Virus record (IMG/VR): IMGVR_UViG_3300032431_000029
Span: 1 to 34,213 of that record
DNA length: 34,213 nucleotides
From: a virus
Strand: one strand, 5' to 3'
A model generated the notes under the pieces. The model saw only the letters and a program-made list of their open reading frames with translations. It made no database searches and was not told where the DNA came from. The stretch's first letter is position 1, and each line of letters opens with the position of its first letter. The translations under genes and the position numbers were made by a program. Of the stretch, positions 1-34,213 are shown piece after piece.

Positions 1-2
1 CT

Positions 3-338
3 TTTACATGGACTTCTTTTGATGCAACCAGCTACAAGGCGATCGCAAACCCAACCCAGCCCGTGCAACTCCAAACAAGAGCCAGTCAAAAAACCACCAC
101 CCTACTGGGGGATACTGAAGTCCCGGTGGTAGTTTTTCTCTCTGGAATATTTAAGACCGTCCCCTTGGGCAAACTCAAAAAAGGGGAGACGATCGAACTC
201 AGTTCAGAAATGGCGGTAAGCTACGTCCGCCTAATTTTAGGGGGTGAGGAGCTACTGGAGATCGATGTTTTTAGTAATACTTACAGGGTCGCCGGGGCTG
301 ATATTTTAAGCCAGTGGAGAGCTAATTTAGGAATTTAA
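3..338 (+). CDS. Phage major tail tube protein (P2 gpFII-like), 5' truncated
   Basis: This is the inner tube subunit of a contractile phage tail. The reading frame is open to the left edge, so the N-terminus is missing and the GTG at 63 is only an internal codon. The frame upstream of 63 reads FTWTSFDATSYKAIA, which matches the style of the family. The C-terminus FSNTYRVAGADILSQWRANL closely follows the P2 FII ending, in which a phrase of the type YRVNGVDxLAxxRAALGI is conserved. The middle (GKLKKGETIELSSEMAVSYV) fits a beta-rich tube fold. The next gene, a tail chaperone, starts one base after the stop, which is the P2 order FII-E. The assignment is from motif memory and gene order; the sheath gene (FI) would be expected just left of the window. 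Confidence 0.85.
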   Translation, partial: FTWTSFDATSYKAIANPTQPVQLQTRASQKTTTLLGDTEVPVVVFLSGIFKTVPLGKLKKGETIELSSEMAVSYVRLILGGEELLEIDVFSNTYRVAGADILSQWRANLGI

Positions 339-339
339 C

Positions 340-633
340 ATGGCAACAAAAAAGAAAGAACCAGTCGAAACATTCACGCTCACTAGTGGCAAAGTAGCCA
401 GTCGATTTGCATTAAGTAGCAAAGATTATTTTTCATTCAGGAAAAGGCTGCAAGATGAGCAGGACACCGATTTAGCCACTAAAGAAATAGTGATGCGATC
501 GTACCTACTCGATGACCTGCCCATCACGATCGATATGTTGGAAGATGATGACGGTCTGACTTTTGAGGATGTTTATACCCTCACCAATAGGCTTGATAAC
601 CTTTTTTCGCAGCTCCAACAGAAAGCGACCTAA
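340..633 (+). CDS. Tail assembly chaperone (gpE-like)
   Basis: This 97-residue acidic protein sits between the tube gene and the tape measure, where contractile phages encode a chaperone that loads the tape measure for tail assembly. Its sequence (FTLTSGKVASRFALSSKDYF, then an acidic DMLEDDDG stretch) has no motif decisive by itself. The call rests on position, size and the overlapping second frame behind it, which resembles gpE'. The gene ends NRLDNLFSQLQQKAT, and the codons for NLF include a run of six T (602-607). That run is a plausible slippery site for a -1 shift into the downstream frame. Confidence 0.75.
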   Translation: MATKKKEPVETFTLTSGKVASRFALSSKDYFSFRKRLQDEQDTDLATKEIVMRSYLLDDLPITIDMLEDDDGLTFEDVYTLTNRLDNLFSQLQQKAT

Positions 634-764
634 TTGCTTTTTGCCAGATCACGGGCTGGGGGATTGTAGATATTTATAGTCTCGATTTAGACGACCTAAT
701 TTACTGGATTGGTCACGCACGGGATTATCAGAAAGCTCTGGATAAAAGACTTAGGAAAAAATAG
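600..764 (+). CDS. gpE'-like C-terminal extension, probably made by -1 frameshift
   Basis: A second frame, -1 relative to the chaperone, is open from 600 to the TAG at 762-764. It encodes a segment ending DLIAFCQITGWGIVDIYSLD and LDDLIYWIGHARDYQKALDK. This resembles the short GpE family of P2-like phages (a Trp-Gly start, then D-L-D-D-L-x-x-W). The frame has no ATG, GTG or TTG, so it cannot easily start on its own. Its upstream limit is a stop at 597-599, so the shift must occur between 600 and 633. The best candidate is the six-T run at 602-607. The phase does not give a textbook X-XXY-YYZ heptamer (it reads C-CTT-TTT), so the exact slip point is open. In P2 the E/E' pair is known to be made by a -1 shift. 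Confidence 0.72.
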   Translation, partial: PFFAAPTESDLIAFCQITGWGIVDIYSLDLDDLIYWIGHARDYQKALDKRLRKK

Positions 765-772
765 GGGGATTA

Positions 773-1480
773 ATGTCTAACGATCCAAATTCTCCAAATT
801 CTCAGAATCCCCCGATCGAAGCCAAACCCTTCAGTGAGGAGGCTCTGGAATTAAATAGTCAAAGAGTCCGGGAACTAAGAACAGAGCAGTCTGTGGGGGA
901 AGATATCGATCGATTAAAAGCCCTTCAGCTTATGCAAGAAGATCTTGCCAGATCAAAGACCGTTCAACTCATGAAGGAGGAGCTTGATCGATCGACAACC
1001 GTGGCAAACTCTACAGATATCGAGAATCTCAAGGCGCTGCAATTTGACCTGACAGAGAAGCAGATCGCCAGTATGTCAGAGATTGCCAAAGCCACGGCTA
1101 AATTGAATGAACTAAAAAGGGATCAGGATGCTCAAGACCTCATAAAAATCACAACCGAGCAAGCGATCAAAGAGATCAAACTGACTCAAAATGAGCAGGA
1201 AATTCTTTATCTCCAGAATCAAAATGATCTAGCTTTTCTACTGAGAGAGCAAAGGACAAAGGCAGAGTATTTCTTTGCCTATCGGCTGATCATATCCACT
1301 CTATGCACCACCGTCTTACTCTCCCTAGCGGCGGGGGTATGGCTGACAGCAATGAGAATCGAAATCCCCCAACTAGTGATCGTTCTCAGTAGTTCTGGAC
1401 TAGGGGCGATCTCTGGACTTTTAACCCCGAATCCCCAAGCCCAAAAAAGAGAAAATCCCACTAATAATAGGAGAAGTTAA
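773..1480 (+). CDS. Coiled-coil protein with C-terminal membrane segments
   Basis: This is a 235-residue protein of unknown function. The first 165 residues are highly charged, with repeated phrases (RLKALQLMQEDLARSK, then VQLMKEELDRSTTV) typical of a coiled coil. Residues about 168-215 form one or two hydrophobic helices (IISTLCTTVLLSLAAGVWLT and LVIVLSSSGLGAISGLL), and the tail is basic. The start is supported by the GGGGG tract 5-9 bases upstream of the ATG. The gene lies between the gpE' frame and the tape measure and ends directly at the tape measure ATG. P2 has no gene at this place. It may be a membrane-directed tail component or an accessory gene expressed with the tail; the sequence does not decide. 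Confidence 0.7.
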   Translation: MSNDPNSPNSQNPPIEAKPFSEEALELNSQRVRELRTEQSVGEDIDRLKALQLMQEDLARSKTVQLMKEELDRSTTVANSTDIENLKALQFDLTEKQIASMSEIAKATAKLNELKRDQDAQDLIKITTEQAIKEIKLTQNEQEILYLQNQNDLAFLLREQRTKAEYFFAYRLIISTLCTTVLLSLAAGVWLTAMRIEIPQLVIVLSSSGLGAISGLLTPNPQAQKRENPTNNRRS

Positions 1481-4060
1481 ATGGCTTCTAGTCTCCTCTC
1501 TATCACGATCGAAGCGATCGATAACGCCAGTGCAGTCATCTCTGGGGTTCAGAATAGTGTCAAAGGACTGGCTCAAATTGGGGCGGTCGGCTCCTCTCTA
1601 GTGGGGATGGGTGCGGCGATCGCTTTGCCTATTATTGGGATTGGTACGGCTGCCGTTGGAGCGGCGGTTGAGTTTGAAAGCTCTATGGCTAATGTTGCCA
1701 AAGCTGCAAACGTCCCAGTAAATTCTGCACAATATCGAGCGTTAAGCACAGAGATATTAGGGCTGTCTAGAGTCATCCCCAGAGCGGCGACCGACCTTGC
1801 TGAAATTAGTGCTGAGGGTGCGAAATTGGGGGTAAGTATCCCCAACCTTGGAAGATTTACGACTCTCATGTCCACTATGGCAGTAGCCTTTGACATGACC
1901 GCACAGCAAGCGGCGGAGGGCGGAGCGAAAATTGCCAACTCATTCCAGATGGTTGATGCAGCGGGGCAGATGGACTTCTCAAGGTTGTCACGGTTTGGGG
2001 ATGTGGTAAACACACTCGGAGACAACATGGCAACCACCGAAGGGCAGATCATTGAATTTGCCAAACAGACGGCGGGTGTAGCTAGTGTTTATCGAATTAG
2101 TGAGGGGGATGTTGCAGGTTTGGGCGCTGCTTTCACCAGCTTAGGGTTAGCCCCTGAACGGGCAGCTAGGGCGTTTAATTCCACGGCGGTCAAATTAGCT
2201 TCGGCAACCAGTTTGGGCAGTGCGGCTCAAGAGGGGTTTAAGGCTTTAGGGGTTAGTGCGACCGAGATGCAGACAGCTTTCGAGAGTGGAGAGGGGACTG
2301 ATGCTTATTTAGGATTTCTGCAAAAAGTAAAGACGGCGGGCCCACAAGCCGGGGCAGCTCTATCTAAAATCTTTGGGGTCGGTTTCTCCGATGAGATTAT
2401 GACCGCCGCAGCCGGGATGGATCAATTTACTAAGGCGATCGACCTATCCGGTAAAAAGGCGGGGGATGCTGGTTTCTCGACAATGCAGAGCAGTTTTGAA
2501 ATCTTTGCCAGTACCACCGCCTCACAGATGCAACTGCTCAAGAACAATTTCACAGAGTTAGGGATTGCGATCGGCAGTGCAATCCTCCCTGCTATTAATG
2601 CTGTCACATCTGCGATCCGTCCCATGATTATGGCTTTTGCAAGTTTCGCACAAGCAAACCCCGGCATCATTGCAGTCGGTGTTGCTATTTTGGGGATTGT
2701 TGCAGCGATCGGGGTTGCAGCGATCGCAGTTGGTGGTTTTCTCATGGCGATCGCATCCGTAGGAACTGCGATGGCAACTATAAGCGGTGGTGCGGCTGCA
2801 ATTGGTTTAGGAGCCATGTTTGCCCCGTTGGGTGCGGCTGCTCTGCTTGCTGCCGGGCTAGTTGCTGTAGCGGCGGGTATTATTGCGGCGGGTGCATTTC
2901 TAGTTACGGGTAGTTGGGAAGGTGTAGCCGGGGTTTTTGCTGCAATCCCGGCTGTATTGTCAGAACTACCTGCTAACCTTGCCCAAATCCCGGCTGCCAT
3001 TGGCTCAATGATTTTGGCTGCTCAAGCGATCATAAATAATTTCGTGGCGGGGGTGAGGTTAGCATTTGCGACTATGGGTAATGCTATGACTCAAGCCCTC
3101 TCTGGAAATATGGCTCCATTTATGGCTATCTTTCAGGGGATTGTTCCGGCTATCCGAGCCGCTTTTCTGGGGATAGGGACGATGATTGTTGGAGTTATTA
3201 CGGGAATAATGACTGCCATAGGTACGATCGGGACGATGATCGGAGCCGTCTTGATGGGCATAAACGCCATGATATTAGCCTATTTGACCACCGTAGCAAC
3301 TGGAATCACGGCTGCAATCATGGGAATTATTACGGGAATAGTGGCAGTGATTTCCACGATCGGGATGATGATCGGGACGGTGATCATGGGAATTGTGACC
3401 GGGGTGATGGTAGCGATCGCCGGGATATCTGCTTCGATCGCCGGGGTGATTGCCGGGATATCTGCTTCAATATCTGGGGCTATGGCAGGAATTATGGGGG
3501 TGATCGATAGCATGGTTTCGTCTATGACCGCCGCCTTTAATTCGATCGGCCCCGCAATTTCTGGGGCTATGAGTGCGGCGATCGGTGTAGTTACGAGCAT
3601 GGCTGGTCAGTTTGCAGCCGCTGGATCTGCGCTTATGGCTGCCCTAGCTCAAGGGATTATGGCGGGGGCTAGTGCGGCGGTGTCTGCCGTGGCTGGGGTT
3701 GCTGGGCAACTTAGAGCTATGTTGCCATTCTCACCTGCCAAGACTGGCCCATTATCAGACTTAGATAAATCTGGCCCTGCACTAATGACCACGATCGCAG
3801 ACGGGATCACCGCTACCCCAATTTTAGGAGCGTTAGGTCGATCGCTCTCACCTGCTTCTAGTCTCGCTGGTGGTATGGGAATGTCAGCACCAACTCAAGG
3901 CGGGGGGTCGTCTGGCGGAGCTATTACCCTCAACTATGCCCCGGTAATAAATGGGGACGGCGGTAATGATTTAATCGAAACGCTTCGATCGCATTCCAGA
4001 GAATTAATGCAAATGTTATCGGAAGTTCAAGCTCGGAGCGATCGAAAATCATATACTTAA
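1481..4060 (+). CDS. Tail tape measure protein (P2 gpT-like)
   Basis: This 859-residue protein sets tail length and is ejected ahead of DNA. The N-terminal 350 residues match the TP901-type tape measure core (VEFESSMANVAKAANV, then LAEISAEGAKLG and FAKQTAGVASVYRISEGDVA). Residues about 375-760 are extremely rich in Gly, Ala, Ile and Met, with repeated hydrophobic units such as GIITGIVAVISTIGMMIG, as expected for a membrane-interacting tape. The C-terminus (ITLNYAPVING, then LIETLRSHSRELMQMLSE) resembles the ending of P2-type tape measures. A purine-rich site (ATAGGAGAAG) precedes the ATG, which abuts the preceding stop. At the usual 0.15 nm per residue the tail would be about 130 nm long, which is an estimate only. 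Confidence 0.93.
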   Translation: MASSLLSITIEAIDNASAVISGVQNSVKGLAQIGAVGSSLVGMGAAIALPIIGIGTAAVGAAVEFESSMANVAKAANVPVNSAQYRALSTEILGLSRVIPRAATDLAEISAEGAKLGVSIPNLGRFTTLMSTMAVAFDMTAQQAAEGGAKIANSFQMVDAAGQMDFSRLSRFGDVVNTLGDNMATTEGQIIEFAKQTAGVASVYRISEGDVAGLGAAFTSLGLAPERAARAFNSTAVKLASATSLGSAAQEGFKALGVSATEMQTAFESGEGTDAYLGFLQKVKTAGPQAGAALSKIFGVGFSDEIMTAAAGMDQFTKAIDLSGKKAGDAGFSTMQSSFEIFASTTASQMQLLKNNFTELGIAIGSAILPAINAVTSAIRPMIMAFASFAQANPGIIAVGVAILGIVAAIGVAAIAVGGFLMAIASVGTAMATISGGAAAIGLGAMFAPLGAAALLAAGLVAVAAGIIAAGAFLVTGSWEGVAGVFAAIPAVLSELPANLAQIPAAIGSMILAAQAIINNFVAGVRLAFATMGNAMTQALSGNMAPFMAIFQGIVPAIRAAFLGIGTMIVGVITGIMTAIGTIGTMIGAVLMGINAMILAYLTTVATGITAAIMGIITGIVAVISTIGMMIGTVIMGIVTGVMVAIAGISASIAGVIAGISASISGAMAGIMGVIDSMVSSMTAAFNSIGPAISGAMSAAIGVVTSMAGQFAAAGSALMAALAQGIMAGASAAVSAVAGVAGQLRAMLPFSPAKTGPLSDLDKSGPALMTTIADGITATPILGALGRSLSPASSLAGGMGMSAPTQGGGSSGGAITLNYAPVINGDGGNDLIETLRSHSRELMQMLSEVQARSDRKSYT

Positions 4061-4504: not shown

Positions 4505-4506
4505 GG

Positions 4507-6948: not shown

Positions 6949-7064
6949 TGTCAAGCGATTTGTCAAGCCATGTCAAGCGGTGTCAAGCGGTGTCAAGCGA
7001 GGTGTCAAGGACTGTCAAGCGAGTGTCAAGCGAGTGTCAAGCGGTGTCAAGCGAGTGTCAAGCG
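6949..7064 (+). repeat. Array of eleven TGTCAAGCG repeats at helical spacing
   Basis: Eleven direct copies of TGTCAAGCG (two with one or two changes at the end) start at 6949, 6961, 6971, 6981, 6991, 7003, 7013, 7024, 7035, 7045 and 7056. The steps are 10-12 bp with a mean of 10.7, so all copies face one side of the helix. This is the geometry of iterons or of a partition centromere such as R1 parC, where ribbon-helix-helix ParR stacks on about 11-bp repeats. The array lies between convergent genes and next to the FtsK-like ATPase. It may be a replication origin, a centromere for the ParR-like protein at 10318, or a loading site for the ATPase. Confidence 0.85.
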
Positions 7065-7107: not shown

Positions 7108-8757
7108 CTAATTTGGGGTAAATTCCCCGCCCCTGACAAAACCATCCCCGGACTCCTCTAAATAATTAAACAATTGCAATATCTCTTGAGCAGAATATCC
7201 TCGACAACTCCTTAACCCCGCCGTGATTTCTGAGGGCTTAATTCTCTCCTTACGCTTGGCATAAGCTAGAACTTTTTGCAGTAAATCTTCGAGGGTAGGA
7301 TCATCAAGGGAATCAATTTTAGAAACATTGGTGCTGGTGGTAGGCTGTCTAGTTTCTGCTGGTGGTGCGGTCGATCGATCCAAACAGACCTCTAACAATT
7401 CCCGGCTATCCCGTGGCTGTGATTGTGGCAAGGGCGAATCATTGACCATAGGCAATCGGTAAAAATCTACCCCCTCAAGAGTGCTTAGAGCTAGGGTTTC
7501 TTGAATAGGAGTAGCGGCGATCGAATCCAAATACTCTTGAAGTTTCCTAGACTTTCTACCAGAGATTTGATGCTCTAATAAATCTTCCAGAGATTCATAT
7601 TTACGGTTTCGGCCCAAGGACACAAAAGATAAAGCATCTAGCATAGCCGTATCAATTCCAAGGGTTTTGCATCTCGAACTATGGGACGAGAAAACAACCT
7701 TTACCCCGGCGCTTAACCCTTGCCAGAGGAGCCTAATTAAAATCTCGGTAAATCTCTCAAGCTCCTTAGAATCATGGGCATTGATCGCAAACCGCAACAT
7801 ATTAATCTCATCGACAATTAAGGTGACAGGATATTTTTCTGCCCCTGACTGTCTGGCAATTAATTCTGATTCAATCTCCCTAAATAGATTCATCACCGGT
7901 GGGACTTTGCCAGATTCATTACACAGCAGGAAAGTAGCGGCGGTCGATCGCAATCGCAGATCATCACCCTTTGCATCGATTAGATAAATCTTGCTGGTAG
8001 AACTTGCCTTAATAATTTCTAGCAGGAGGGTAGATTTACCCGATCGTGGCTTGGCAACGATACAGCAATGCGTTTCCCCAGATGCAATATTTTCAGCTAA
8101 ATCTCTGACTGGTGGTAGGACGATCGACCCCCCAGAAACTTCTACAGTCTCAGGGCTTAATCCCCTTGGTGTTTGAGCTTGGGGGGTTCTGGTAGGAGTG
8201 CTATGCTGTGTTTCAGGCGCGGCGGGTAGAGTGTAAACTTCTCGTATCTTTTGCATCGATCGATGATGATATCGATCCTGCTGGTCATCAGGGATTCTAG
8301 ATAAATCGATATCCTTAATAGCTGTCAGCAGTTGAGGCAGCCAGCCGTAGGCTTCGATCGACTGAACAAAGTCCACACCAAAGCGGTTTAGGGCTAGGTA
8401 GTGAGTTTGTTCTAGTCCGCTTAATTGTGGCAACAAATCATGATCGCCCGTGAACAATCCAAATTTAGGGAGGGCTTTTACTTCGCTCGATTCAGCATAT
8501 GCGTAAGAAATCCAAGCGGCGATCGAACCTGAAACCCCACACAGGAAAGCAAAACCGATTAAGGGATTAAGCCCTAAACTACCCCCAAGGATTAACCCCG
8601 CTAGTCCGGGCGTGGCAAGCAGTCCAGAGCTAATCTTCCAGTTGTTGCCCGACTCGTAAACCGTTGCCATTCGATCGATCTTATCCAGCAATTTCTCTGT
8701 CTTAGTTAGAGGTATGGCGGGGGTGTAATCTTGGTATCCTTCATAATCAACAATCAT
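7108..8757 (-). CDS. Membrane-anchored FtsK/HerA/TraD-like DNA-pumping ATPase
   Basis: This is a 549-residue P-loop ATPase likely to move DNA at the membrane. Residues about 44-88 form two hydrophobic helices (SGLLATPGLAGLILGGSLGL and IGFAFLCGVSGSIAAWISYA). A Pro/Thr-rich linker follows (180-203), then Walker A AKPRSGKST (235-243), Walker B LIVDE (313-317) and a sensor-like VVFSSHS (354-360). Residues 475-549 resemble a winged-helix tail (SEITAGLRSCRGYSAQEILQ). Two membrane helices followed by this ATPase domain are typical of TraD/VirD4 coupling proteins and short FtsK relatives. The gene overlaps the membrane protein upstream of it by 11 bases. No relaxase is seen, so partition, packaging or transfer are all possible. 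Confidence 0.75.
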   Translation of the reverse strand: MIVDYEGYQDYTPAIPLTKTEKLLDKIDRMATVYESGNNWKISSGLLATPGLAGLILGGSLGLNPLIGFAFLCGVSGSIAAWISYAYAESSEVKALPKFGLFTGDHDLLPQLSGLEQTHYLALNRFGVDFVQSIEAYGWLPQLLTAIKDIDLSRIPDDQQDRYHHRSMQKIREVYTLPAAPETQHSTPTRTPQAQTPRGLSPETVEVSGGSIVLPPVRDLAENIASGETHCCIVAKPRSGKSTLLLEIIKASSTSKIYLIDAKGDDLRLRSTAATFLLCNESGKVPPVMNLFREIESELIARQSGAEKYPVTLIVDEINMLRFAINAHDSKELERFTEILIRLLWQGLSAGVKVVFSSHSSRCKTLGIDTAMLDALSFVSLGRNRKYESLEDLLEHQISGRKSRKLQEYLDSIAATPIQETLALSTLEGVDFYRLPMVNDSPLPQSQPRDSRELLEVCLDRSTAPPAETRQPTTSTNVSKIDSLDDPTLEDLLQKVLAYAKRKERIKPSEITAGLRSCRGYSAQEILQLFNYLEESGDGFVRGGEFTPN

Positions 8758-9430
8758 ATTTTTGCCCTCCTACTGGCGCTTCGGGTTGGGGAATATCTTT
8801 GATATCCTCAAAAGTGACTGGGTTAGAATTTCTGAGTTTATCTTCTTGGAAACTTGCAAACATATCCAAGCCAAATCTAAATCCCCATAGGGCTATCAAT
8901 AACTGGATAACTTTGATGGGGGTGATTCCCTCAAGCCAAGCAAGGAAAACGAATCCAACAAACTCGCAGATAGTTGCAATTAAACCAGCAACAATAATTG
9001 AATTATTCGCGGCTCTTTCCCCTGAAATCTTGGCTTTCTTTCTGGCTTTTTGAAACTCTCGATGTCCCTCGGTCTGGATATATTCGATCGTGGCTCCTAA
9101 AAGAATTGCAGTTAAGACAGTTACCCCAACCCAAAAGTTACCCAAACTTGCCTCTAATCCCCTCGTCAGGCTGCTTCGAGATAGCAGTTTGAAATAGTTC
9201 TCAGTGGATAAATAGAAGGCATAGCACATCAAGAACCCGCCACAAATTACTTTCCCGTTTGCAATAAATGACCAGCAAAGATGTCCTACAAAACTAAAAA
9301 TCGTTACTGGAATAAAGAAAATAAAGTCTGCAATCTTACCAGCATTTAGATGAGTTTTTACCTTTGCTCTTGAGGTGCTTGCCTTGGCTCTTGGGGTGCT
9401 TACCGTGGTCTGTTCAGTGACATCTCTCAT
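8747..9430 (-). CDS. Multi-spanning membrane protein (227 aa)
   Basis: The protein starts with about 30 polar, basic residues (STPRAKASTSRAKVKTHLNA). It then has four or five hydrophobic segments (IADFIFFIPVTIFSFVGHLC, KVICGGFLMCYAFYL, FWVGVTVLTAILLGATI, SIIVAGLIATICEFVGFVFL, IKVIQLLIALWGF), with a charged loop between the third and fourth and a polar C-terminus. The family is not recognised. It overlaps the ATPase gene downstream (11 bases) and the 136-residue protein upstream (4 bases), so the three are translated together. It is therefore a candidate membrane partner of the ATPase. Confidence 0.7.
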   Translation of the reverse strand: MRDVTEQTTVSTPRAKASTSRAKVKTHLNAGKIADFIFFIPVTIFSFVGHLCWSFIANGKVICGGFLMCYAFYLSTENYFKLLSRSSLTRGLEASLGNFWVGVTVLTAILLGATIEYIQTEGHREFQKARKKAKISGERAANNSIIVAGLIATICEFVGFVFLAWLEGITPIKVIQLLIALWGFRFGLDMFASFQEDKLRNSNPVTFEDIKDIPQPEAPVGGQKYDC

Positions 9431-9837
9431 TGATTGAACTCCTCAGGGTTAAATATTTCTTGATAATTGTTAACTAGTGCATCGGTTACAGGTTGGGGGA
9501 TTAAGCCCGTTCTCACGCTTAAGTAATAGCCCCAGACTGGTGAGTTCTCGTCTGATTCCAGTAGTAAGAAATCTTGGGAATTTAGATTACTAAGGACTAT
9601 TCTTAGGTCGGTATTTGGGGGGATTTGGGGGTTGTATTTATAGCCCCAGAGTTTGATAATTCCCCATCGCTTACCATCTCTAGAAATCAAGCTAGAAAAC
9701 TCTTGGGGGGTTTTTGGTTGCTCTACCTTTGGGGGTGGTGGTGGTATCTTGGCGATCGCATCCACAGAGAGGATTGAGCCGATCAAAGTGGCAAAAAGAG
9801 AGAGTGCGAGACAAGCGGCGGGAATTGCATAATTCAT
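9427..9837 (-). CDS. Small membrane-anchored or exported protein (136 aa)
   Basis: A hydrophobic N-terminal segment (AIPAACLALSLFATLIGSIL) is followed by a run of five prolines and a polar domain (ISRDGKRWGIIKLWGYKYNP, then SVRTGLIPQPVTDALVNNYQ). It is either a one-span protein with its domain outside the cytoplasm or a secreted protein; no lipobox cysteine is present. It overlaps the next gene by four bases (ATGA). A strong terminator ends only ten bases before its ATG, so its expression must depend on read-through from the ParM operon. Confidence 0.65.
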   Translation of the reverse strand: MNYAIPAACLALSLFATLIGSILSVDAIAKIPPPPPKVEQPKTPQEFSSLISRDGKRWGIIKLWGYKYNPQIPPNTDLRIVLSNLNSQDFLLLESDENSPVWGYYLSVRTGLIPQPVTDALVNNYQEIFNPEEFNQ

Positions 9838-11531: not shown

Positions 11532-11562
11532 GGGTTGTAAAATGTAGATGAGTTTTTGATTT

Positions 11563-15245: not shown

Positions 15246-15250
15246 TAAAA

Positions 15251-18008: not shown

Positions 18009-18014
18009 AATAAA

Positions 18015-22087: not shown

Positions 22088-22109
22088 GAAAGAAGCCTAG
22101 CTAGAATAT

Positions 22110-23166: not shown

Positions 23167-24199
23167 AATTTGCCTCTAAGATTCTTTGAGCTAGTAGCGG
23201 CGGGACTGAATTGCCAATTATTGAGCAAGCCGTATCACGGGCGATCGGGAATTGATACCAGCTAGGAAATGATTGCCAACGGGCTAGGCAGCTTATATTT
23301 GTTTGGAGAATTTTAACCCCGTAGTTAATTACCCACTGTTCCCAATGCCCATCTTGCCCTAGGGCTTTAATAGTTGGCACTGGACGATCGTTTAGGATTT
23401 CTCTTAGGGGTCGATCGCTCCTAGCACCGTCTTTTTCGATAAGGCAAATTTTAGGGAACCCTTTATGGACACTGCCCACGATTGTAAAACTAGGTTTTGA
23501 TCGATCGACTAAATAAGCATCGCCCTCACCAGTTCTGTTCTGCCCAGCAACCAAGCAATCCTGATCAACTCTCAATTTTTGCCAGGCAGCCAGATCGGTT
23601 TCCTTAAGATTAGGAATCAGATCGGCGATCGCCTCGTGCCAACTTATCCATTCAGGCTTTGGGAATAGCCCCTGTTGTGGGGTTGGTTTCTGGTGAGTAG
23701 TTTCTGGGAACCGGGGTCGATCGCCCAGCTTGCCTAGCAGGATTAATCTTTTCCTAGTTTGGGGGACTCCATAATCTGCTGAATTGAGAACCCTAAAAGC
23801 AGGGTTGTATCCTAGACTTTTCAAGGTTGTCACAATCATCAAGAAAGAATCTGAGTTTTTATATCCCCTGACATTCTCCAATGAGAAAGTTTTGGGCTTG
23901 ATCTGTTCGATCGCCCGACATACAGCAGCAGCACAACCCAAGTCAAACTCAGATTCAGCCGCTCCGGTTTTTGCAGTTGAGAAATTTTTGCACACGGGGC
24001 TGGCGTGTAAATGGTCGGCGGTTACTTCAGCAAAATCCTGAACGCAGATATCCCCAACTACAATATGGTTCCCGAAATTAACTCGATAAGCTGCCGAAGC
24101 TTTTGGGCAATTGTCGATCGCAAAGACCGGGGTGAGTCCGGCTGCTACTGCCCCGGCATCAAACCCGCCCCCGCCACTGAATAGAGTTGCAATTTTCAA
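23159..24199 (-). CDS. DNA (cytosine-5-)-methyltransferase
   Basis: This 346-residue enzyme transfers a methyl group from SAM to cytosine C5. Motif I is ATLFSGGGGFDAG (residues 5-17), motif IV ASPVCKNFS with catalytic Cys70, motif VI ENV (108-110), motif VIII QTRKRL (147-152), then a target-recognition region of about 110 residues and the closing GNSVPPLLAQRI. The catalytic Cys follows Val instead of the usual Pro. The frame runs to an ATG at 24232, but a TTG at 24199 has GGGAGG five bases upstream and overlaps the previous stop as TTGA, so it is chosen. No cognate nuclease is in the window, so it probably protects the element's own DNA. Confidence 0.9.
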   Translation of the reverse strand: MKIATLFSGGGGFDAGAVAAGLTPVFAIDNCPKASAAYRVNFGNHIVVGDICVQDFAEVTADHLHASPVCKNFSTAKTGAAESEFDLGCAAAVCRAIEQIKPKTFSLENVRGYKNSDSFLMIVTTLKSLGYNPAFRVLNSADYGVPQTRKRLILLGKLGDRPRFPETTHQKPTPQQGLFPKPEWISWHEAIADLIPNLKETDLAAWQKLRVDQDCLVAGQNRTGEGDAYLVDRSKPSFTIVGSVHKGFPKICLIEKDGARSDRPLREILNDRPVPTIKALGQDGHWEQWVINYGVKILQTNISCLARWQSFPSWYQFPIARDTACSIIGNSVPPLLAQRILEANYD

Positions 24200-24438
24200 A
24201 AGTACCTCCCGAACGTTTGCATCATTAGCCAATTAGCCACGATCGCCGCTTGCTGGTCAGGTGTGTTAACAGCAGTTACTTTTGGGGCTAAGATTACCTT
24301 GTCATCCGAAATCATCTGTTTGGCAATTTCGAGAGCGGCGGGCTTGTACATCCCATAGTTTCTGGGGTTGGCTTCGATCGCCGTCTTGAGTTTTCCTAGT
24401 CCTTCTTTAAGCCATCGTTTCTGTTGCAGGGTTATCAT
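24196..24438 (-). CDS. Small hypothetical protein (80 aa)
   Basis: This helical, basic protein (MITLQQKRWLKEGLGKLKTA, then ALEIAKQMISDDKVILAPKV) lies between the two methyltransferase genes. It overlaps both of them: TAATG with the adenine methyltransferase before it and TTGA with the C5 enzyme after it. GGAGG precedes the start. It is clearly part of the modification operon; its function is not recognised. Confidence 0.65.
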   Translation of the reverse strand: MITLQQKRWLKEGLGKLKTAIEANPRNYGMYKPAALEIAKQMISDDKVILAPKVTAVNTPDQQAAIVANWLMMQTFGRYF

Positions 24439-24926
24439 TATTTGCCTCCAAAAATTACTAGTAAGGAATCGAATTGTCCGCCCCTCTTTATCCGTGGGCT
24501 TTGGGGTGTCGCTAGTCGGGGTCGGTGCATCCCTTGGAAAGCGTTAACCCAGTTGCCTGATCGATCGATCCCCTCAAAGGGAATTCGACCTTTTATAAAT
24601 TCAATTTCGGCATGGGGCAGAATTACTTCATGAAATATTCTGGTGCTGGTGGAGGCAGGAATCAGCATGACGATCAGCTTGCCTTGCTGTGATTCGAGAA
24701 ACCCTCGATGGATAAAAGATTCTTTGACTTTCTGGGAATATGGGGGATTTACGAATATTCGATCGCCCTCCCATTCGGCTGTTAAGCCATTGAACTTTTC
24801 TGGATCGTTGTCCATAGGACATGGATCAAACGGGTCGAAGTTGAATCTGTGATTTAGGAGATCATAGAATCTAAGGTTTGTTGACCATGAATCTGAAGGT
24901 TCTGTGGTTCTGGTTTTTTGTTGCAT
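24438..24926 (-). CDS. Phage N6-adenine DNA methyltransferase (Dam family of phages)
   Basis: This is a 162-residue protein of the phage N-6-adenine-methyltransferase family. The typical beginning is present (DSWSTNLRFYDLLNHRFNFD, then PFDPCPMDNDPEKFNGLTAE), followed by the catalytic motif FVNPPYS (NPPY) and the strand KLIVMLIPASTSTRIFHEVI. The frame extends to 24977, but the ATG at 24926 is preceded by the leader ATCAAAATAACAAAA found before other genes here and is preferred. No Shine-Dalgarno is seen. Confidence 0.85.
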   Translation of the reverse strand: MQQKTRTTEPSDSWSTNLRFYDLLNHRFNFDPFDPCPMDNDPEKFNGLTAEWEGDRIFVNPPYSQKVKESFIHRGFLESQQGKLIVMLIPASTSTRIFHEVILPHAEIEFIKGRIPFEGIDRSGNWVNAFQGMHRPRLATPQSPRIKRGGQFDSLLVIFGGK

Positions 24927-24930
24927 TTTT

Positions 24931-24982
24931 GTTATTTTGATTCTTGATGATTGGGATGTTTGGGGCGATCGAACCACCCCGG
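24931..24982 (-). promoter_or_regulatory. Intergenic spacer unit with ATCAAAATAAC leader (gene 24926)
   Basis: On the minus strand the stretch between two genes contains a G/C-rich GGTTCGATCGCCCC segment (24962-24982), then ATCAAAATAAC (24931-24941) four bases before the ATG. The same pair of elements recurs in other spacers of this operon. Confidence 0.6.
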
Positions 24983-28023: not shown

Positions 28024-29010
28024 ATGACTTTGATTGCTTCGATCGCCCCGCCTGATAATTATTCTCTATACCCTACGGAAATCAAAACTTCTGGAGAGGG
28101 ACTGGCAAAAATAGAATCGAGTCCGCCCAGCCCTAGTGCTTTTTATTTATCTGGATTGTCTAAGGGTTCGATTAGGACAATGGAAGCGGCTTTGATTAAG
28201 GTTGCTGATTTCTTTGGTTGCACTGGACATCTTGATTTCCCTTGGTGGGATTTGACCTCTCTGCATTTACAGAGCTTGCGATCGTACCTCGAAGCTAACT
28301 ATGCCCCGGCTTATGGGAATAAAATCCTAGCGGCGGTGTATGGGGTTTTAAATTCTTGCTATCAGGATTATGGATTAATGAGTCGAGATCAAGCAGGATT
28401 GAGGGTTAAAAAGATTACCCAAGATTTTAGAACTACGTCTCCCCAATCTGAGGGGCGGGCTTTACCTCAACCTGAATTGTCGAGATTGCTAGATAGTTTC
28501 CCTGCCTCCTCGATGGGAATTAGGGATCGGGCGATCGTGGCTTTGTTCTTGGGGGGATTGCGTAGGAGCGAAGTTAGTAATTTATTGCTTGGTAATTTCG
28601 ATCGGGGGAATGGGGAAATATTTATCTTCCAAGCTAAGGGCAACAAATCACGGGAATCGTATTTACCACCACGGGCGAATAAATTCGTAATTGAATGGTT
28701 GGATCTGCGAGGGGCGGGGGATGGGTTTCTGGTCTGCCCTTTGAATAAATCCGGGGCTATCCACCCAGAAAAAAGATTGGGTGAGCAGACTTTATATGAT
28801 GTGGTTAAGAGGGCTGCTAGGGGTGCGGGGTTGGGGGATTTGAAACCTCACGATCTCAGGCGATCGGTAGCCAGTGGATTGCTTGATCAAAATGTGGATG
28901 TTTCTACCGTTGCCAAACTTTTAGGGCATTCGAGTATTCAGACCACGATTGGGTACGATCGACGGGGTGAGGATTCTAAGATTAAGGCTATGCAGGGATT
29001 TGGGATATGA
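28024..29010 (+). CDS. Tyrosine recombinase / integrase
   Basis: This 328-residue site-specific recombinase has a core-binding domain at residues 38-130 (SGLSKGSIRTMEAALIKVAD, then SLRSYLEANYAPAYGNKILA) and a catalytic domain at 145-325. The active-site residues can be read: Arg180 in LGGLRRSEV, Lys205/208 in QAKGNKSRESYLP, H276-x-x-R279 in KPHDLRRSVA, His302 in LLGHSSIQTT and Tyr311 in GYDRRG. It is shorter than lambda Int and lacks an arm-binding domain, which brings it close to XerC-like recombinases. It could integrate the element or resolve dimers of a plasmid form. GGGGA lies five bases before the ATG. Confidence 0.9.
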   Translation: MTLIASIAPPDNYSLYPTEIKTSGEGLAKIESSPPSPSAFYLSGLSKGSIRTMEAALIKVADFFGCTGHLDFPWWDLTSLHLQSLRSYLEANYAPAYGNKILAAVYGVLNSCYQDYGLMSRDQAGLRVKKITQDFRTTSPQSEGRALPQPELSRLLDSFPASSMGIRDRAIVALFLGGLRRSEVSNLLLGNFDRGNGEIFIFQAKGNKSRESYLPPRANKFVIEWLDLRGAGDGFLVCPLNKSGAIHPEKRLGEQTLYDVVKRAARGAGLGDLKPHDLRRSVASGLLDQNVDVSTVAKLLGHSSIQTTIGYDRRGEDSKIKAMQGFGI

Positions 29011-29014: not shown

Positions 29015-29887
29015 CTATAAGTCCAGCAAACTCATCTGTTGAATCCTATTTGGGGTTCTGGCAATCTTGGCTATGTCTCCCCGCATCCCAGAGGATCGAT
29101 CGCAAATATAGAGGATTTCGATCCGCTCTTTTTCTGCCGTCTTGTCTTTACTGGCGCTCATGACTGCCTGAATTTCAATTACTTTTTGCACTGAATCCGG
29201 GGCTATGGCTTGAGCGTAGTTACTGAGAATGTAGGAGCCTTGACAATTATCTAGGGAGTTGCAGAGGGCTTGATAATCTTCTAGGGAATATCCAGAATAA
29301 TGCCCTTGAGTAGTGCCGGGGTAGGGCGGATCGCAGTAGAAGATAGTTTGAGGTGAGTCCCATCTTTTGATGAAGTCGATCGCATCTTCGCAGCCTATAT
29401 TCACATCCTCTAATCTTTTGAAACATTCAGGGAGCCTATCTTTCCTTGTCTTCCATGTCTGGGCAAGATTTTTTGATAACGTGCTAACGCCCCACCCGTG
29501 TCCGATCTTGTTGGCAAAACTCATATTGCATTGAATATAGACCGCCCAAGCAATTTCTAACTCAGAAAAATCTAGCGGGTTTTTGTAGATGTTTTTAGCC
29601 CTTTTATATTCAGCCTGAGAAAAAGGAGTTAGTTGCAGATACCAATCAAGCTCCTCTGGCTGCTCTCTGGCTACCTTCCAGAAAGTAATTAGGGTTTGAT
29701 TCTTATCATTAATCGCCTCGCTGTAATGATCGCCGTTCCCGGTGTGTCGCTTTCCTTTGGCATAGAGGATCGAACCACCACCAAAAAAAGGCTCTGCATA
29801 GACGGTGTGAGGGATTCCCCAAATGTAGGGGACGATCTGTGAGGCGATTCTTTGTTTACCGCCGTAATAACTAATTGGGGTTTTCAT
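29015..29887 (-). CDS. D12-class adenine-N6 DNA methyltransferase (Dam-like)
   Basis: This 290-residue enzyme shows the D12/Dam family features: YYGGKQRIA near the N-terminus, the SAM motif EPFFGGGSILY (32-42), INDKNQTLITFW (59-70), and the catalytic motif YCDPPYPG (DPPY, 186-189) followed by the substrate helix YSLEDYQALCNSL. Dam enzymes often methylate GATC, and this window is full of GATC within CGATCG, but the specificity cannot be read directly. It is convergent with the integrase gene (four bases apart) and divergent from the RHH gene at 29925. Confidence 0.88.
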   Translation of the reverse strand: MKTPISYYGGKQRIASQIVPYIWGIPHTVYAEPFFGGGSILYAKGKRHTGNGDHYSEAINDKNQTLITFWKVAREQPEELDWYLQLTPFSQAEYKRAKNIYKNPLDFSELEIAWAVYIQCNMSFANKIGHGWGVSTLSKNLAQTWKTRKDRLPECFKRLEDVNIGCEDAIDFIKRWDSPQTIFYCDPPYPGTTQGHYSGYSLEDYQALCNSLDNCQGSYILSNYAQAIAPDSVQKVIEIQAVMSASKDKTAEKERIEILYICDRSSGMRGDIAKIARTPNRIQQMSLLDL

Positions 29888-29924
29888 GTTGCTATTTTAC
29901 CATTTATTGAGGTACACTATCAGC

Positions 29925-30083
29925 ATGAGTAAAAAAAATCTGACCGTGCGTATTGAAGAAACAGAAAAGGCGATCCTATCCCAGTTCTGCGAAAAAGTTG
30001 GTAGGACTCAATCTGATGTAGTTAGGGAATTTGTGAGGAGCCTAAAGCCCAAAAGATTGGCTAAGGAGAATCATGATCAGTGA
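29925..30083 (+). CDS. Ribbon-helix-helix protein (52 aa)
   Basis: The protein MSKKNLTVRIEETEKAILSQ, then FCEKVGRTQSDVVREFVRSL, is a clean Arc/CopG-type ribbon-helix-helix domain: strand LTVRI, helix, the turn GRTQSD and helix. The frame is open to 29886, but the ATG at 29925 starts the domain exactly. It is adjacent to the origin-like region and the replication gene, so it may be a copy-number repressor (CopG-like) or a regulator of the divergent dam gene. This is inference from position. Confidence 0.7.
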   Translation: MSKKNLTVRIEETEKAILSQFCEKVGRTQSDVVREFVRSLKPKRLAKENHDQ

Positions 30084-30334: not shown

Positions 30335-30424
30335 TTGGCTACCACACCACATAATATAGATACATCACTTGGCTCTTACCTCAAATAATATACATGGATC
30401 ACTTGGCTCTCACCCCAAATAATA
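30335..30424 (+). repeat. Three 34-bp direct repeats next to the replication gene (origin candidate)
   Basis: TTGGCT starts at 30335, 30369 and 30403, exactly 34 bases apart. Each is followed by a C/A-rich segment and AATAATAT or ATAATAT: the second and third read TTGGCTCTTACCTCAAATAA and TTGGCTCTCACCCCAAATAA. Such iterons next to a plasmid initiator gene usually mark the replication origin. The third repeat would also code for the first residues of the gene if translation began at 30394. Confidence 0.65.
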
Positions 30425-33400
30425 TGAATACATTATACTTCGATCGAAACCAAAATAGCAATACATTTAGCCAAAAAGCTTTTCTAGTCGGGCTAAATCA
30501 TCAAATCGTGGGCAAGTGCGAGCCTCAAAAACTTTCCTATGCCGGGGCGTTTACACCAACGCAGGTAAGCATTCTAGAACTAGCAGACCACATTGGTAAA
30601 GGTCATCCTTGGATGCCGGGGGTGCTAGATGCCGGGGCAAAACGTTGGCAGCAACACGCAAATTATGCTGAGGTTCTAGGCGCTGATATTGATGGCGGTA
30701 TGACGATCGCCGGGGGCCTAGAGAATCCCCTGATTAAAAATCACTGCTCTCTCTTAATTGAGTCGGCAAGCTCGAAGCCAGAACTAGAGAAGTTTAGACT
30801 GGTTTTTGTGTTGCCAAGGGCTGCTGAGGGCTATCAATTAATTAAGGTGTTGAATCGCTACCTGATTGATTTATTAGGAGTAGCAGACAAGGCTTGCAAA
30901 GATGCTTCTAGATTTTTCTTTGGCGCTCCGGGTCGATCGCCCAAATTATTACAGTCGGTTACTCTACCAGAATCTTTCATAGAAGATGCGATCGCTTGGG
31001 ATAAAGAAATTGAGTTAGAAGCCGATCGCAAATATCAAGCCGCTCTATCAAGGAGAACTGACAATCCCACAGATCCAAACGATTTAAGGGATTTAGCAGA
31101 ATCAGCATTAAGGTTTATCCCCCCCAGAATCAAGGGGCAGAATACTTATGATGATTGTATTACCTGTCTTTTTGCTCTCTATTCTGAATTTGGGGACGGG
31201 GCGATCGCTATTGCTGAACGATGGTCGCCGTCTCATGGGGAATGGGATATTGCCAAGAAAGTCCAGAGCTTTGGGCGTGGATCCACGGGGCGGTCGATCG
31301 GGCTTGGTAGCTTATTTTATTTAGCCCGGCAGAACGGTTGGAATTTCCCCAAGCGAGAATTTAGTCCTAGGGATTACGATCGCTACCAAAAACAAGATAC
31401 GCAAGTAGGGGCGATCGCCGACTCCAGAGAATTAGGTGGTCTGGGTGTCCGGGTTAATAATTCCAGAAAAAGCAAATGGCTCCGCCGGGCTACGGGGTTT
31501 GTTGCTACCCATGAATTTGATAAACAATTTATAGACCTACCTGATATTCAATCTGGTGTTGCTGCTGAAGATTGGCTGATCTCCATTAAATCCGGGCTTG
31601 GCACTGGCAAAACTCAGTTATTAAACCCTTTGATTGAGTCTCTGGAATCCAGTGGCAAGGGGCGGGGTGTAGCTATGTTGGGTTATCGAAATTCTTTGCT
31701 ACTCCAAACAGCCAAAAGGATCGGGGCTTATCATTTGCATCACCATTCTGCCTTTGACTTAATCAAAGATGCTGATAGCCGGATCGTGGCTTGTCTGGAT
31801 AGTTTAGAGCATTTCCCTGATGACTATTTTGATGGGAAGATTCTGATCCTTGATGAGTTGACCAGCATCGTTAAGCATCTGCTCTCCTCCTCGACTTGTG
31901 CAAAAAATAGAACCAAGATTTTAGAGAAGTTTATCCAAGCCATTAAGCGATCGGCGATCGTGGTTTCTTTAGATGGGAATATGGCGGACTGGGTTGTGGA
32001 CTATCTGCAAACTTTACGCAGCGAAAGTAAGGGCGTGGCTAAGTTGCTGAATACTTACAATCTGCAAAATACCCCATTAGAAATTCTCCCTAGTTTTGGG
32101 CAGTCTGGTTTGGTGAGCAAAATTATCGAAGTGCTACCCGGATATAAAAGCCAAAATCAATCTATTGCGATCGCTACCGATTCCCAGAGATTAGGGGAAA
32201 AATTAGATTTGATGTTTACGGAAAAGGGCTATCGAGTTTACCGGATTGATTCAAAAACTATTACCCAGAAAGAAGTTAAAAAATATATTGAGTCTCCCGA
32301 TCGAAATCTGGATATCCTGATTTATACCCCGTCCTGTGAATCTGGGTTAGATATTCCCCTTGAAGGTTTTGCCCACACCTTTGCATTTTTTCTTGGGGTT
32401 GTGGATACTGCCACGCAGATTCAAATGTTACGGCGGGTGCGGAAGGTCGATCGGATTACAGTCCAGTGCGTTCCTTATTCGAGATTGAATAGGATGCGAT
32501 CGCCCATCTTAGAGGAGTTTCAGCAAGAACTAGAAAATGCTCTCCTCCTCGATGGTTCTGAACAATTAGATCACGTTAAGTTTTGGTTGGAGAAGCAAAA
32601 AGAGAGTTTGCATTATCCGGTACTCTGCGAGCTTCTACAGAACCGAGATTTTGAGCGGACTAATACTCTAGATTGTTTAGTAGAACTTGCTAGGTCGCAC
32701 GGTTACAGCCCTGAGATTGTTGATATAGCAGATTGTAAGGCAACGGGCTTAGAGCTATCTAAAGCATCTCAACAGGTCAAGGAGGGGGAGGCGATCGCTA
32801 TCTTCAAAGCTCAAGATTTGACCGTATCCCAAGCCATTGCAATCAAGGCAAGTTTTACAGCCAGTCTGGACGATCGATATGCATTGCAGAAATTTGAGAT
32901 CAAGGATACGCTGCCGGGGATTGAGAATACTGAGTTCTGGAATGTTGAGGGAATTATCGAGATTAGAAATATGTGGCGATCAATCCCTAATCTCAAGCTC
33001 CTCTGGCATTCGAGAAACCTTGAAAAATCTAAGCTCCTCTCGGATAAGCGTTGGCAGGGATGGATAGAGCAGGATCGGTTTATTGGGGATTGCTTATCTA
33101 ATCCTTATGCCAAAGCCAAGATGATTAATGCTCTGGGGATTCTGAATCTTCCAGATAATTTTTCTGCTGATTCTCCAGAGATTCAGGCGATCGATAAAGC
33201 CGGGATTGATAAGCGCCGGGGTCTTCGATCGGTCTTGGGGGTTGTCAAAGGTTCCCTTGAGTCGATGCAATGGGTTAAGAATTTGTTGGGACTTGTGGGT
33301 TTGCAAGCCGGGGTATCTGGAAGGAAATTTGGGCAGTCTCGAACCTATCAAATAGTTGATTTCAGCCCTTTATATAAAACCGTTTTGAGTTGTATTTCAA

Positions 33401-33687
33401 AAGGGCTTGAAAGCCAATATGCACAAGCATTAGAGTCATGCCAACTGACTGAAAATATAGTACCTAATCCACCACCAGTTGGCATGGGTTTAGAGAATAT
33501 CCCAAACCCCACAGAGGAGCCTAAAATCGCACCACCAGAACCACCTAAATACATCCCGGAAATGGTCACATTTATTCAGGGTGGGGTAACACTCACAGGG
33601 GAATTACTAGGGCAGCAAGGCGAGTTTATCCGGGTGAGGGTAAACGGGCAGAATTATCTAGCTAATACCGAGAACTTAGTTGCTTAA
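30424..33687 (+). CDS. Plasmid replication protein, CyRepA1-like primase-helicase
   Basis: This very large replication protein has 1087 residues from this start (1097 if the ATG at 30394 is used). The N-terminal third resembles a primase/initiator domain: GADIDGG (an acidic D-x-D), FRLVFVLPR and KDASRFFFGAPGR. The middle is a helicase-like P-loop ATPase: Walker A KSGLGTGKTQ about residue 400, LGYRNSLLLQTAKRIG, Walker B KILILDELTSIVKHLL about 485, and IYTPSCESGLDIPLEGF as a helicase motif near 645. The order and phrases fit the CyRepA1 family of cyanobacterial plasmids as known to me; no alignment was run. The ATG at 30424 is preferred because the first one lies inside the 34-bp repeat. Confidence 0.82.
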   Translation: MNTLYFDRNQNSNTFSQKAFLVGLNHQIVGKCEPQKLSYAGAFTPTQVSILELADHIGKGHPWMPGVLDAGAKRWQQHANYAEVLGADIDGGMTIAGGLENPLIKNHCSLLIESASSKPELEKFRLVFVLPRAAEGYQLIKVLNRYLIDLLGVADKACKDASRFFFGAPGRSPKLLQSVTLPESFIEDAIAWDKEIELEADRKYQAALSRRTDNPTDPNDLRDLAESALRFIPPRIKGQNTYDDCITCLFALYSEFGDGAIAIAERWSPSHGEWDIAKKVQSFGRGSTGRSIGLGSLFYLARQNGWNFPKREFSPRDYDRYQKQDTQVGAIADSRELGGLGVRVNNSRKSKWLRRATGFVATHEFDKQFIDLPDIQSGVAAEDWLISIKSGLGTGKTQLLNPLIESLESSGKGRGVAMLGYRNSLLLQTAKRIGAYHLHHHSAFDLIKDADSRIVACLDSLEHFPDDYFDGKILILDELTSIVKHLLSSSTCAKNRTKILEKFIQAIKRSAIVVSLDGNMADWVVDYLQTLRSESKGVAKLLNTYNLQNTPLEILPSFGQSGLVSKIIEVLPGYKSQNQSIAIATDSQRLGEKLDLMFTEKGYRVYRIDSKTITQKEVKKYIESPDRNLDILIYTPSCESGLDIPLEGFAHTFAFFLGVVDTATQIQMLRRVRKVDRITVQCVPYSRLNRMRSPILEEFQQELENALLLDGSEQLDHVKFWLEKQKESLHYPVLCELLQNRDFERTNTLDCLVELARSHGYSPEIVDIADCKATGLELSKASQQVKEGEAIAIFKAQDLTVSQAIAIKASFTASLDDRYALQKFEIKDTLPGIENTEFWNVEGIIEIRNMWRSIPNLKLLWHSRNLEKSKLLSDKRWQGWIEQDRFIGDCLSNPYAKAKMINALGILNLPDNFSADSPEIQAIDKAGIDKRRGLRSVLGVVKGSLESMQWVKNLLGLVGLQAGVSGRKFGQSRTYQIVDFSPLYKTVLSCISKGLESQYAQALESCQLTENIVPNPPPVGMGLENIPNPTEEPKIAPPEPPKYIPEMVTFIQGGVTLTGELLGQQGEFIRVRVNGQNYLANTENLVA

Positions 33688-33723
33688 CTCCTTTCTCGGT
33701 CGGCTTCGATCGATTAAACATAA

Positions 33724-33734
33724 ATCAAAATAAC
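33724..33734 (+). promoter_or_regulatory. ATCAAAATAAC leader (gene 33739)
   Basis: An exact copy of the leader motif on the plus strand, four bases before the start codon, showing that the motif is used in both halves of the window. Confidence 0.55.
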
Positions 33735-33738
33735 GAAA

Positions 33739-33996
33739 ATGAATAACACAGAAAATCAAGAACCGATCGATCGAAACTTCCCACAGATCAGCGATCGTGT
33801 AGAGTTCCTACAAATTCCCAGAAACGGCGATCCTATCTGGCACCAAGGATTGATCGGACTTAACAACGGTCGAGAATTAGCGATCGATGTAAATACGGGC
33901 GGTCGGTTTTTCTGCCCCCGCCGGGATTGGCAATCAAGGATCAAGTTTATCGATCGACCCGCCCCAGACTTTAATAAGAACTATTACCTCCCATAA
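33739..33996 (+). CDS. Small hypothetical protein (85 aa)
   Basis: The protein contains a barrel-like middle (ISDRVEFLQIPRNGDPIWHQ, then GLIGLNNGRELAIDVNTGGR) and ends DRPAPDFNKNYYLP. The function is not recognised. It lies 51 bases after the replication gene. The spacer has GGCTTCGATCGATT and ATCAAAATAAC (33724-33734) four bases before the ATG, with no Shine-Dalgarno. Confidence 0.6.
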   Translation: MNNTENQEPIDRNFPQISDRVEFLQIPRNGDPIWHQGLIGLNNGRELAIDVNTGGRFFCPRRDWQSRIKFIDRPAPDFNKNYYLP

Positions 33997-34050
33997 TCCA
34001 ACGGGATTTAATATGACTGCGATCGCCGTAGGTTAAGCTGAAAAGAAACG

Positions 34051-34213
34051 ATGAAACCCACAAACAAGAAATTCTTAGAGCTGGTCGATCTGTTAGGCAA
34101 AGAACAGGCTCATCTGCTCACCAAAACGCTGGGCGGTGCAACACTTTATTTTGGTAGGAATGACAAAACAGTAGTCCCCCCCGAACTAAAGGGACTACTT
34201 ACCCCAGAGTCGG
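34051..34213 (+). CDS. Mor-like transcription activator, cut by the right edge
   Basis: The frame starts MKPTNKKFLELVDLLGKEQA and continues HLLTKTLGGATLYFGRND, then PPELKGLLTPES to the edge with no stop. The phrase (L/I)-V-x-L-(L/I)-G-x-E-x-A then a helix and L-G-G-A-x-L-Y-x-(P/G) is the beginning of the Mor activator family of phage Mu and relatives, in which this part dimerises and a helix-turn-helix follows. The C-terminal DNA-binding part is outside the window, so the call needs the rest of the gene. Confidence 0.55.
   Translation, partial: MKPTNKKFLELVDLLGKEQAHLLTKTLGGATLYFGRNDKTVVPPELKGLLTPES

Follow-up and report, generated by a model that had tools for sequence, protein, structure and literature searches.

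The linear phage-plasmids N15, phiKO2 and that of Vibrio, VP882, each combine phage virion genes with a gene for partition and a large replicase of the primase-helicase type. N15 has a protelomerase, ParA-type partition and a gammaproteobacterial host, and the same holds for VP882. In cyanobacteria, whose lysogeny is poorly understood, a plasmid-like waiting state of a phage is hardly documented. A recent review of phage-plasmids does not mention cyanobacteria (PMC11652158), and one report of a cyanobacterial 'phage-like plasmid' was based on a few structural matches (PMC12510456). The DNA dealt with here, virus record IMGVR_UViG_3300032431_000029 (positions 1-34,213, "the window", which is the whole IMG/VR record with no larger scaffold behind it), probably represents about two thirds of a temperate cyanobacterial phage not described before, which has a P2-type contractile tail and the prophage state of which would be a low-copy circular plasmid. 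Plasmid life inside the cell is probable because the element has a cyanobacterial plasmid's own replication and partition machinery. A first, sequence-only reading had seen a P2-type tail, ParM partition and a CyRepA1 replicon joined in the window, and profile matches confirm all three. Its description of the whole as a cyanobacterial phage-plasmid stands as the best reading of these modules, though as a deduction from the gene content of one contig and its relatives.

The replicon has three parts.
30394..33687, plus strand: CyRepA1-family replication protein (Rep) with a prim-pol-like N-terminus, PriCT-2 and a superfamily 2 (SF2) helicase (NF042913; PriCT_2 and helicase matches)
29886..30083, plus strand: CopG/RepB-like ribbon-helix-helix protein encoded upstream of rep, a candidate for the regulation of copy number (RepB-RCR_reg, 21.7 bits, cut-off 21)
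30335..30433, no strand: 34-bp direct repeats, 2.9 copies, candidate iterons or leader (Tandem Repeats Finder), overlapping the annotated rep start

Rep matches the CyRepA1 model NF042913 at 358.8 bits (curated cut-off 200 bits) over profile positions 4-591 of 595. It thereby passes the model for the cyanobacterial plasmid initiators that had been proposed, and the alternative of a chromosomal helicase family gains no support. The invariant Walker A, DE and Q..R.R positions of its helicase motifs are intact in an alignment of nine. Autonomous replication in cyanobacteria has been shown for the CyRepA1 of pSYSA, a different protein from the Rep of the window (PMC10899382). The N-terminus of Rep is unlike that of Crinalium or Nostoc CyRepA1, and its DxD-containing prim-pol-like region is common to the Rep of Fischerella plasmid8 and that of the phage contig L065; we infer the prim-pol label, as no solved structure matched. 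These three group together in the Rep tree (84/99), where long branches call for caution. Both Fischerella plasmid8 and L065 have the large terminase gene (TerL) on the strand of Rep, beginning about 2 kb downstream of it. No close relative of Rep was found in IMG/VR. The iteron-like repeats expected at the replicon are there, as the 34-bp unit overlapping the annotated start; the true start of rep may be an ATG ten codons later. A shared replicon in another element compared, G008, was considered and rejected, its 945-aa protein being a Prim-Pol/DUF3987 enzyme without CyRepA1. A second virus-classed contig, IMGVR_UViG_3300042309_002578 (138 kb), has, besides HIP1 sites and a gene for a sheath, a CyRepA1 that exceeds the cut-off at 238 bits, and is possibly a large cyanobacterial phage-plasmid.

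The partition module and the genes beside it are as follows.
10575..11570, minus strand: ParM, actin-like partition ATPase, 331 aa (phrog_691 3.7e-16; pSK41 ParM PDB profile 4e-4; fold matches; tblastn)
10318..10575, minus strand: ParR candidate, 85 aa, overlapping the end of parM (weak HTH_24 match, 0.0048; weak similarity to the protein in the ParR position in Nostoc, E 0.002; counterpart in the relative G003)
11735..11811, no strand: parC-like 11-bp direct repeats upstream of parM, 4.2 and 2.2 copies (Tandem Repeats Finder)
9427..9837, minus strand: small protein with a hydrophobic N-terminus (from its sequence), 81% identical to that of G003
8747..9430, minus strand: hydrophobic, probably multi-spanning membrane protein, 227 aa, 83% identical to that of G003; position and size class as in cyanobacterial ParM plasmids, similarity marginal
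7108..8757, minus strand: membrane-anchored AAA-type ATPase of the plasmid backbone module (AAA_22 0.0033); N-terminal 200 aa conserved and ATPase part divergent relative to G003
6949..7064, no strand: array of a 10-11-bp tandem repeat, TGTCAAGCGAG, about 11 copies, between convergent genes and beside the ATPase gene (Tandem Repeats Finder)

The match of ParM to phrog_691, 'partition protein', bears out the proposed actin-type partition operon; no ParR model matched the ParR candidate. A PDB search with a profile of the ParM proteins of the window and of G003 gave pSK41 ParM first (E 4e-4), then CorM and AlfA. The best fold matches of a low-confidence ParM model (predicted local distance difference test, pLDDT, 49) were archaeal Ta0583, pSK41 ParM, CorM and other bacterial actins. 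[The CorM of Anabaena PCC 7120 (9rmi), a cyanobacterial ParM-type filament, is among both the fold and the profile matches.] By tblastn ParM hit 14 plasmid records, all cyanobacterial, and had no match in 50,697 phage records. Downstream of ParM the order of small protein, hydrophobic protein and ATPase matches that in Allocoleopsis pMIC7113.06 and in Nostoc UHCC 0302 plasmids, and the ATPase of G003 matches the one downstream of ParM in pMIC7113.06 (E 1.6e-15). With an hhalign probability of 6%, the 227-aa membrane protein could not be shown to be directly homologous to the proteins in its place on the plasmids, and the structure model of the ATPase, with pLDDT 37, is uninformative. The adjoining membrane proteins may raise the question of a non-partition role for this ParM.

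The window is an open fragment at both ends, since a comparison of its ends gave neither overlap nor end repeat, and because it is the entire record, neighbouring sequence exists in relatives only. Searches for tRNA genes and Rfam families gave no match. A scan with the baseplate protein J gave eight viral contigs, six of them 95-100% identical in J. One of these, G003 (IMGVR_UViG_3300032431_000025, 37.8 kb, incomplete, the Rep end not included), is collinear with window positions 1-23.2 kb, with 80-95% identity over most virion genes, and extends 15.3 kb further left. The closest relatives come from IMG 3300032431, like the window. Its extension encodes a sheath (phrog_23, 6.5e-112), a neck protein, a major head protein (phrog_29) and a large terminase (phrog_5909, 4e-56), together with a probable portal of 502 aa, called by position and by 47% identity to the gene after TerL in G008. 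As G003 continues there into head and packaging genes, the left flank of the window is phage head and not chromosome. The capsid and terminase, and probably the portal, that the sequence-only reading wished to see sought in neighbouring sequence are thus found in G003, left of the point that matches base 1, and chromosomal core genes are not the left flank. Tail genes, then, are the virion structural genes present in the window itself; head genes and terminase are present solely in the collinear G003. From the window alone, which has tail genes and no head genes, it could be argued that a plasmid has captured a tail cluster, or carries a contractile injection system or tailocin, and forms no virions. 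That is very improbable, given that TerL, major capsid protein, neck and probable portal are all encoded just before the tube gene in G003 and follow the order to be expected, and that the close relatives in J are also viral contigs.

The tail genes of the window are listed here with the genes placed among them.
3..338, plus strand: tail tube FII, truncated by the end of the contig so that the C-terminal part is left (Pfam Phage_tube 9.5e-25, matching profile positions 57-165; 93% identical to G003)
340..633, plus strand: probable tail assembly chaperone (gene order; no profile match; 80% identical to G003)
773..1480, plus strand: conserved protein whose gene separates those of chaperone and tape measure (76-83% identical to G003; no profile match)
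1481..4060, plus strand: tape measure protein (phrog_28 2e-63, PhageMin_Tail 6.8e-24)
12861..14762, minus strand: tail fibre, collar-type (phrog_910 1.9e-22)
14796..15245, minus strand: fibre-associated protein (phrog_5417 1.1e-24)
15316..16203, minus strand: gpI (Tail_P2_I 8.3e-24)
16196..17308, minus strand: baseplate J (Baseplate_J 8.1e-49; 95-100% identical in six close IMG/VR relatives)
17318..17782, minus strand: gpW/gp25 (GPW_gp25 1.6e-8)
17718..18068, minus strand: PAAR spike tip (PAAR_motif 3.2e-11)
18729..19388, minus strand: endolysin candidate with peptidoglycan-binding and M15 peptidase domains (PG_binding_1 1e-16, Peptidase_M15_3 6.4e-11), absent at the corresponding place in G003
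19980..20414, minus strand: gpV-like baseplate assembly protein (phrog_9992 2.3e-20)
20398..21450, minus strand: gpD-like baseplate hub (phrog_52 3e-86)
21438..21650, minus strand: gpX (Phage_tail_X 4.2e-7)
21647..22087, minus strand: gpU (Phage_P2_GpU 7.8e-26)

The tail had been called complete. Tube, tape measure, U, X, D, V, PAAR, W, J, I and fibre are indeed recognised by Pfam or PHROG, but 'complete' is wrong, with the tube gene truncated at base 3 and the sheath outside the contig: of the P2-type set FI, FII, T, U, X, D, V, W, J and I, all but FI (the sheath) are in the window, and FI is in G003. Tube and tape measure, on the plus strand, are not contiguous with U, X and D, which belong to the minus-strand block from U to the fibre (22.1-12.9 kb). 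The plasmid module sits between the two blocks and the same split is seen in G003, whereas the tail of G008 is all on the plus strand. The tail of the window is P2-type in content and split in direction. The spaces between tail genes hold a dispersed repeat, at most 68 bp long (15248-15315, 18012-18079 and 22075-22142), its copies up to 94-97% identical; it is common to the relatives and is found at several places in G003. Positions 18273-18704 encode what remains of a defence ATPase of the OLD/AbiL type: in its 143 aa an N-terminal Walker region is fused to a C-terminal region as if internally deleted.

G003 has its virion, ParM, ParR and membrane-ATPase genes in the order of the window; it differs in its ParM and ATPase domain and in lacking the endolysin block (window 18.2-20.0 kb). 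Identity between the two is 92-97% for the tape measure and for J, D, U, X, V and W, against 37% for ParM, and since ParM is just 37% identical the partition module has either diverged or been exchanged. G003 ParM is 38.5% identical to a Calothrix plasmid ParM and 37.0% to that of the window, and the ParM tree does not resolve the window and G003 proteins as sisters. The parC-like repeats of G003 have the same layout, at the corresponding place upstream of parM, but a different sequence. The ATPases share 70-80% identity in residues 1-200 and 10-31% in the remainder. At the place matching window 6949-7064, no array of that kind and size is listed for G003. Exchange of ParM would be the natural reading of these comparisons and fast divergence the alternative; a specific swap is not proven.

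CyRepA1 and ParM are on the same molecule, the link of Rep to the rest being made by a single contig and backed by its composition. The palindrome CGATCG occurs 180 times against 6.8 expected (27-fold over), with 157 of the 180 sites outside HIP1. HIP1 itself, which the sequence-only reading had described as present throughout and as suggesting long residence in a cyanobacterium, is over-represented (23 sites against 0.40 expected from shuffles), but it is absent between 23.6 and 31.0 kb, and the actual signature is CGATCG, mainly outside HIP1. Five cyanobacterial plasmids that were compared have the majority or nearly all of their CGATCG sites within HIP1, and in most cyanobacterial genomes the excess of CGATCG is largely gone once HIP1 is subtracted, a few strains being named as having the highest densities (Elhai, PMC4390886). 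The CGATCG density, itself unusual, hints at the host but does not identify it. A CGATCG excess mostly outside HIP1 is also seen in G003, L006 and L056, of the same phage group. At least 12 other 6-bp palindromes are wholly absent, and the element has Dam-type, D12 and C5 methyltransferases. A profile scan of genome contigs with the J alignment had no cyanobacterium among the matches listed.

This composition bears on whether the contig is a metagenomic chimera in which a phage tail has been joined to an unrelated cyanobacterial plasmid right of 24.4 kb. Such a join would fit with there being no relative over 24.4-34.2 kb: scans with Rep, the recombinase, the D12 methyltransferase and the rightmost open reading frame gave no collinear relative of the right half, and a scan with ParM likewise gave no such relative. 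Composition argues against it, as the halves share CGATCG density (5.1 and 5.5 per kb) and a near-identical tetranucleotide profile, unlike the cyanobacterial plasmids compared. The distance between the halves is 0.05 and that to other elements 0.37-0.94, G003 being the exception (0.04 and 0.095). Further, the ParM module falls in the half that G003 also covers, and the relatives of Rep are terminase-linked. A chimera is accordingly a remote prospect.

Next to the replicon are a recombinase and a methyltransferase, with two further methyltransferases to the left.
28024..29010, plus strand: Xer-like tyrosine recombinase, 328 aa (Phage_integrase 2.4e-26; catalytic R-H-R-H-Y present in an alignment to an XerC-like structure)
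29015..29887, minus strand: D12-class adenine methyltransferase (MethyltransfD12 4.1e-19)
24438..24977, minus strand: phage Dam-type N6-adenine methyltransferase (Dam 9.9e-16)
23159..24232, minus strand: C5-cytosine DNA methyltransferase (DNA_methylase 2.1e-44)

The tyrosine recombinase had been noticed from the sequence, and its Phage_integrase match supports the call. Among three plasmid recombinases compared, it is nearest to that of Crinalium pCRI9333.04 (28%, 1e-12). No relative of the D12 methyltransferase that was tested has CyRepA1. An Xer/integrase-family enzyme with an intact catalytic set, adjoining the replicon, is what a conventional integrated prophage might carry: the recombinase would integrate the DNA, Rep would be a lytic initiator, and ParM and ParR would be leftovers or serve just the excised circle. 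Prim-pol-type phage Reps can serve lytic replication, and L065 has one beside TerL. However, Rep passes a plasmid-initiator model, tyrosine recombinases occur on circular cyanobacterial plasmids with ParM, and a partition operon with parC-like repeats has been retained in two related contigs despite their differing ParM. Chromosomal integration as the normal prophage state is judged unlikely, though less so than either a captured tail or a chimera.

Several points weigh against a phage-plasmid. The contig ends do not overlap, so that circularity is unsupported, and no genome of a lysogen was found; the window itself has no head genes, and no immunity repressor was identified in it. CyRepA1 was not found in the incomplete G003, in G008 or in Scytonema plasmid2. 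The Xer-like recombinase could imply chromosomal integration. No relative covers 24.4-34.2 kb, which leaves the Rep-to-tail link to one contig and to composition, and ParR is a putative assignment through weak similarity, position and size. Searches for tRNA genes and Rfam families gave no match.

With the phage-plasmid retained as the preferred reading, the full circle is predicted to be at least 49.5 kb, with Rep shortly upstream of the terminase gene. Rep would open an origin at its upstream repeats, prime and unwind the DNA, and the CopG-like protein would limit copy number. ParR bound to the 11-bp repeats would couple the DNA to ParM filaments pushing sister copies apart, and the Xer-like recombinase would resolve multimers, or integrate. 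Induction would turn on the head and tail genes, after which the DNA would be packaged. A more speculative proposal, about which doubt outweighs confidence, is that there is a family of P2-type phage-plasmids and satellites in cyanobacteria, on the terminase-linked CyRepA1 branch with a prim-pol N-terminus, in which the virion is near-constant while ParM, ParR, parC and the matching membrane-ATPase domain are exchanged, and that close relatives can thereby share one cell without incompatibility.

The element links a P2-type virion to a replicon family used for cyanobacterial vectors, and with G003 it offers a natural case of closely related phages with different partition systems. Scytonema NIES-4073 plasmid2 and Fischerella NIES-4106 plasmid8 are cultured candidates for testing. 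The former (Scytonema sp. NIES-4073, AP018265.1, 76.6 kb, circular) alone among plasmid records was matched by the capsid and the portal of G003; it has a related portal (41%), major capsid protein (34%), neck, sheath, tape measure and gpD-like protein, and phage-type integrases, but ParA instead of ParM and no CyRepA1 match, and it also encodes a Tn3-type transposase and has a large gene for a peptide synthetase. Crinalium epipsammum pCRI9333.04 (NC_019735.1, 44 kb) shares CyRepA1 (31% over 710 aa), ParM and a related tyrosine recombinase, and differs in having a relaxase, another type of Rep N-terminus and a ParM in a different clade, with no sheath or terminase. The Rep of the other cultured candidate, plasmid8 (Fischerella sp. 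NIES-4106, AP018306.1, 20.7 kb, circular), has the prim-pol-like N-terminus and SF2 helicase seen in the Rep of the window, is 26% identical over residues 50-683, and scores 202.1 bits, over the CyRepA1 cut-off, with TerL 1.9 kb downstream. At only 20.7 kb and with no sheath detected, it is possibly a phage satellite or a reduced phage-plasmid.

Outside the cyanobacteria, VP882 has a P2-like tail, and alignments with the window at E 2e-10 to 7.5e-18 were obtained for its tape measure, V, J, methyltransferase and replicase (the last at 2e-14 against Rep). The sequence-only reading had held that the three systems are rarely reported together, but in VP882 a P2-like tail is already combined with ParA and a replicase of this kind. 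Its view that known phage-plasmids use other replicons is overstated: it is just partly right because the helicase of Rep can be aligned with the replicase of N15, that of phiKO2 and the distantly related one of VP882. The window differs from this group in its ParM system and its cyanobacterial plasmid relatives, and replicase identity is only 22-26%. No protelomerase was found in the window, about two thirds of the element, in which the only tyrosine recombinase is the 328-aa Xer-like one. [Two other CyRepA1 plasmids, Nostoc C052 pC052_H and one of Tolypothrix PCC 7712, have two protelomerase genes in inverted arrangement, which suggests linear hairpin plasmids in cyanobacteria, parallel to N15.] A phage-plasmid is a kind of element already known; what is new here is the combination and its cyanobacterial setting.

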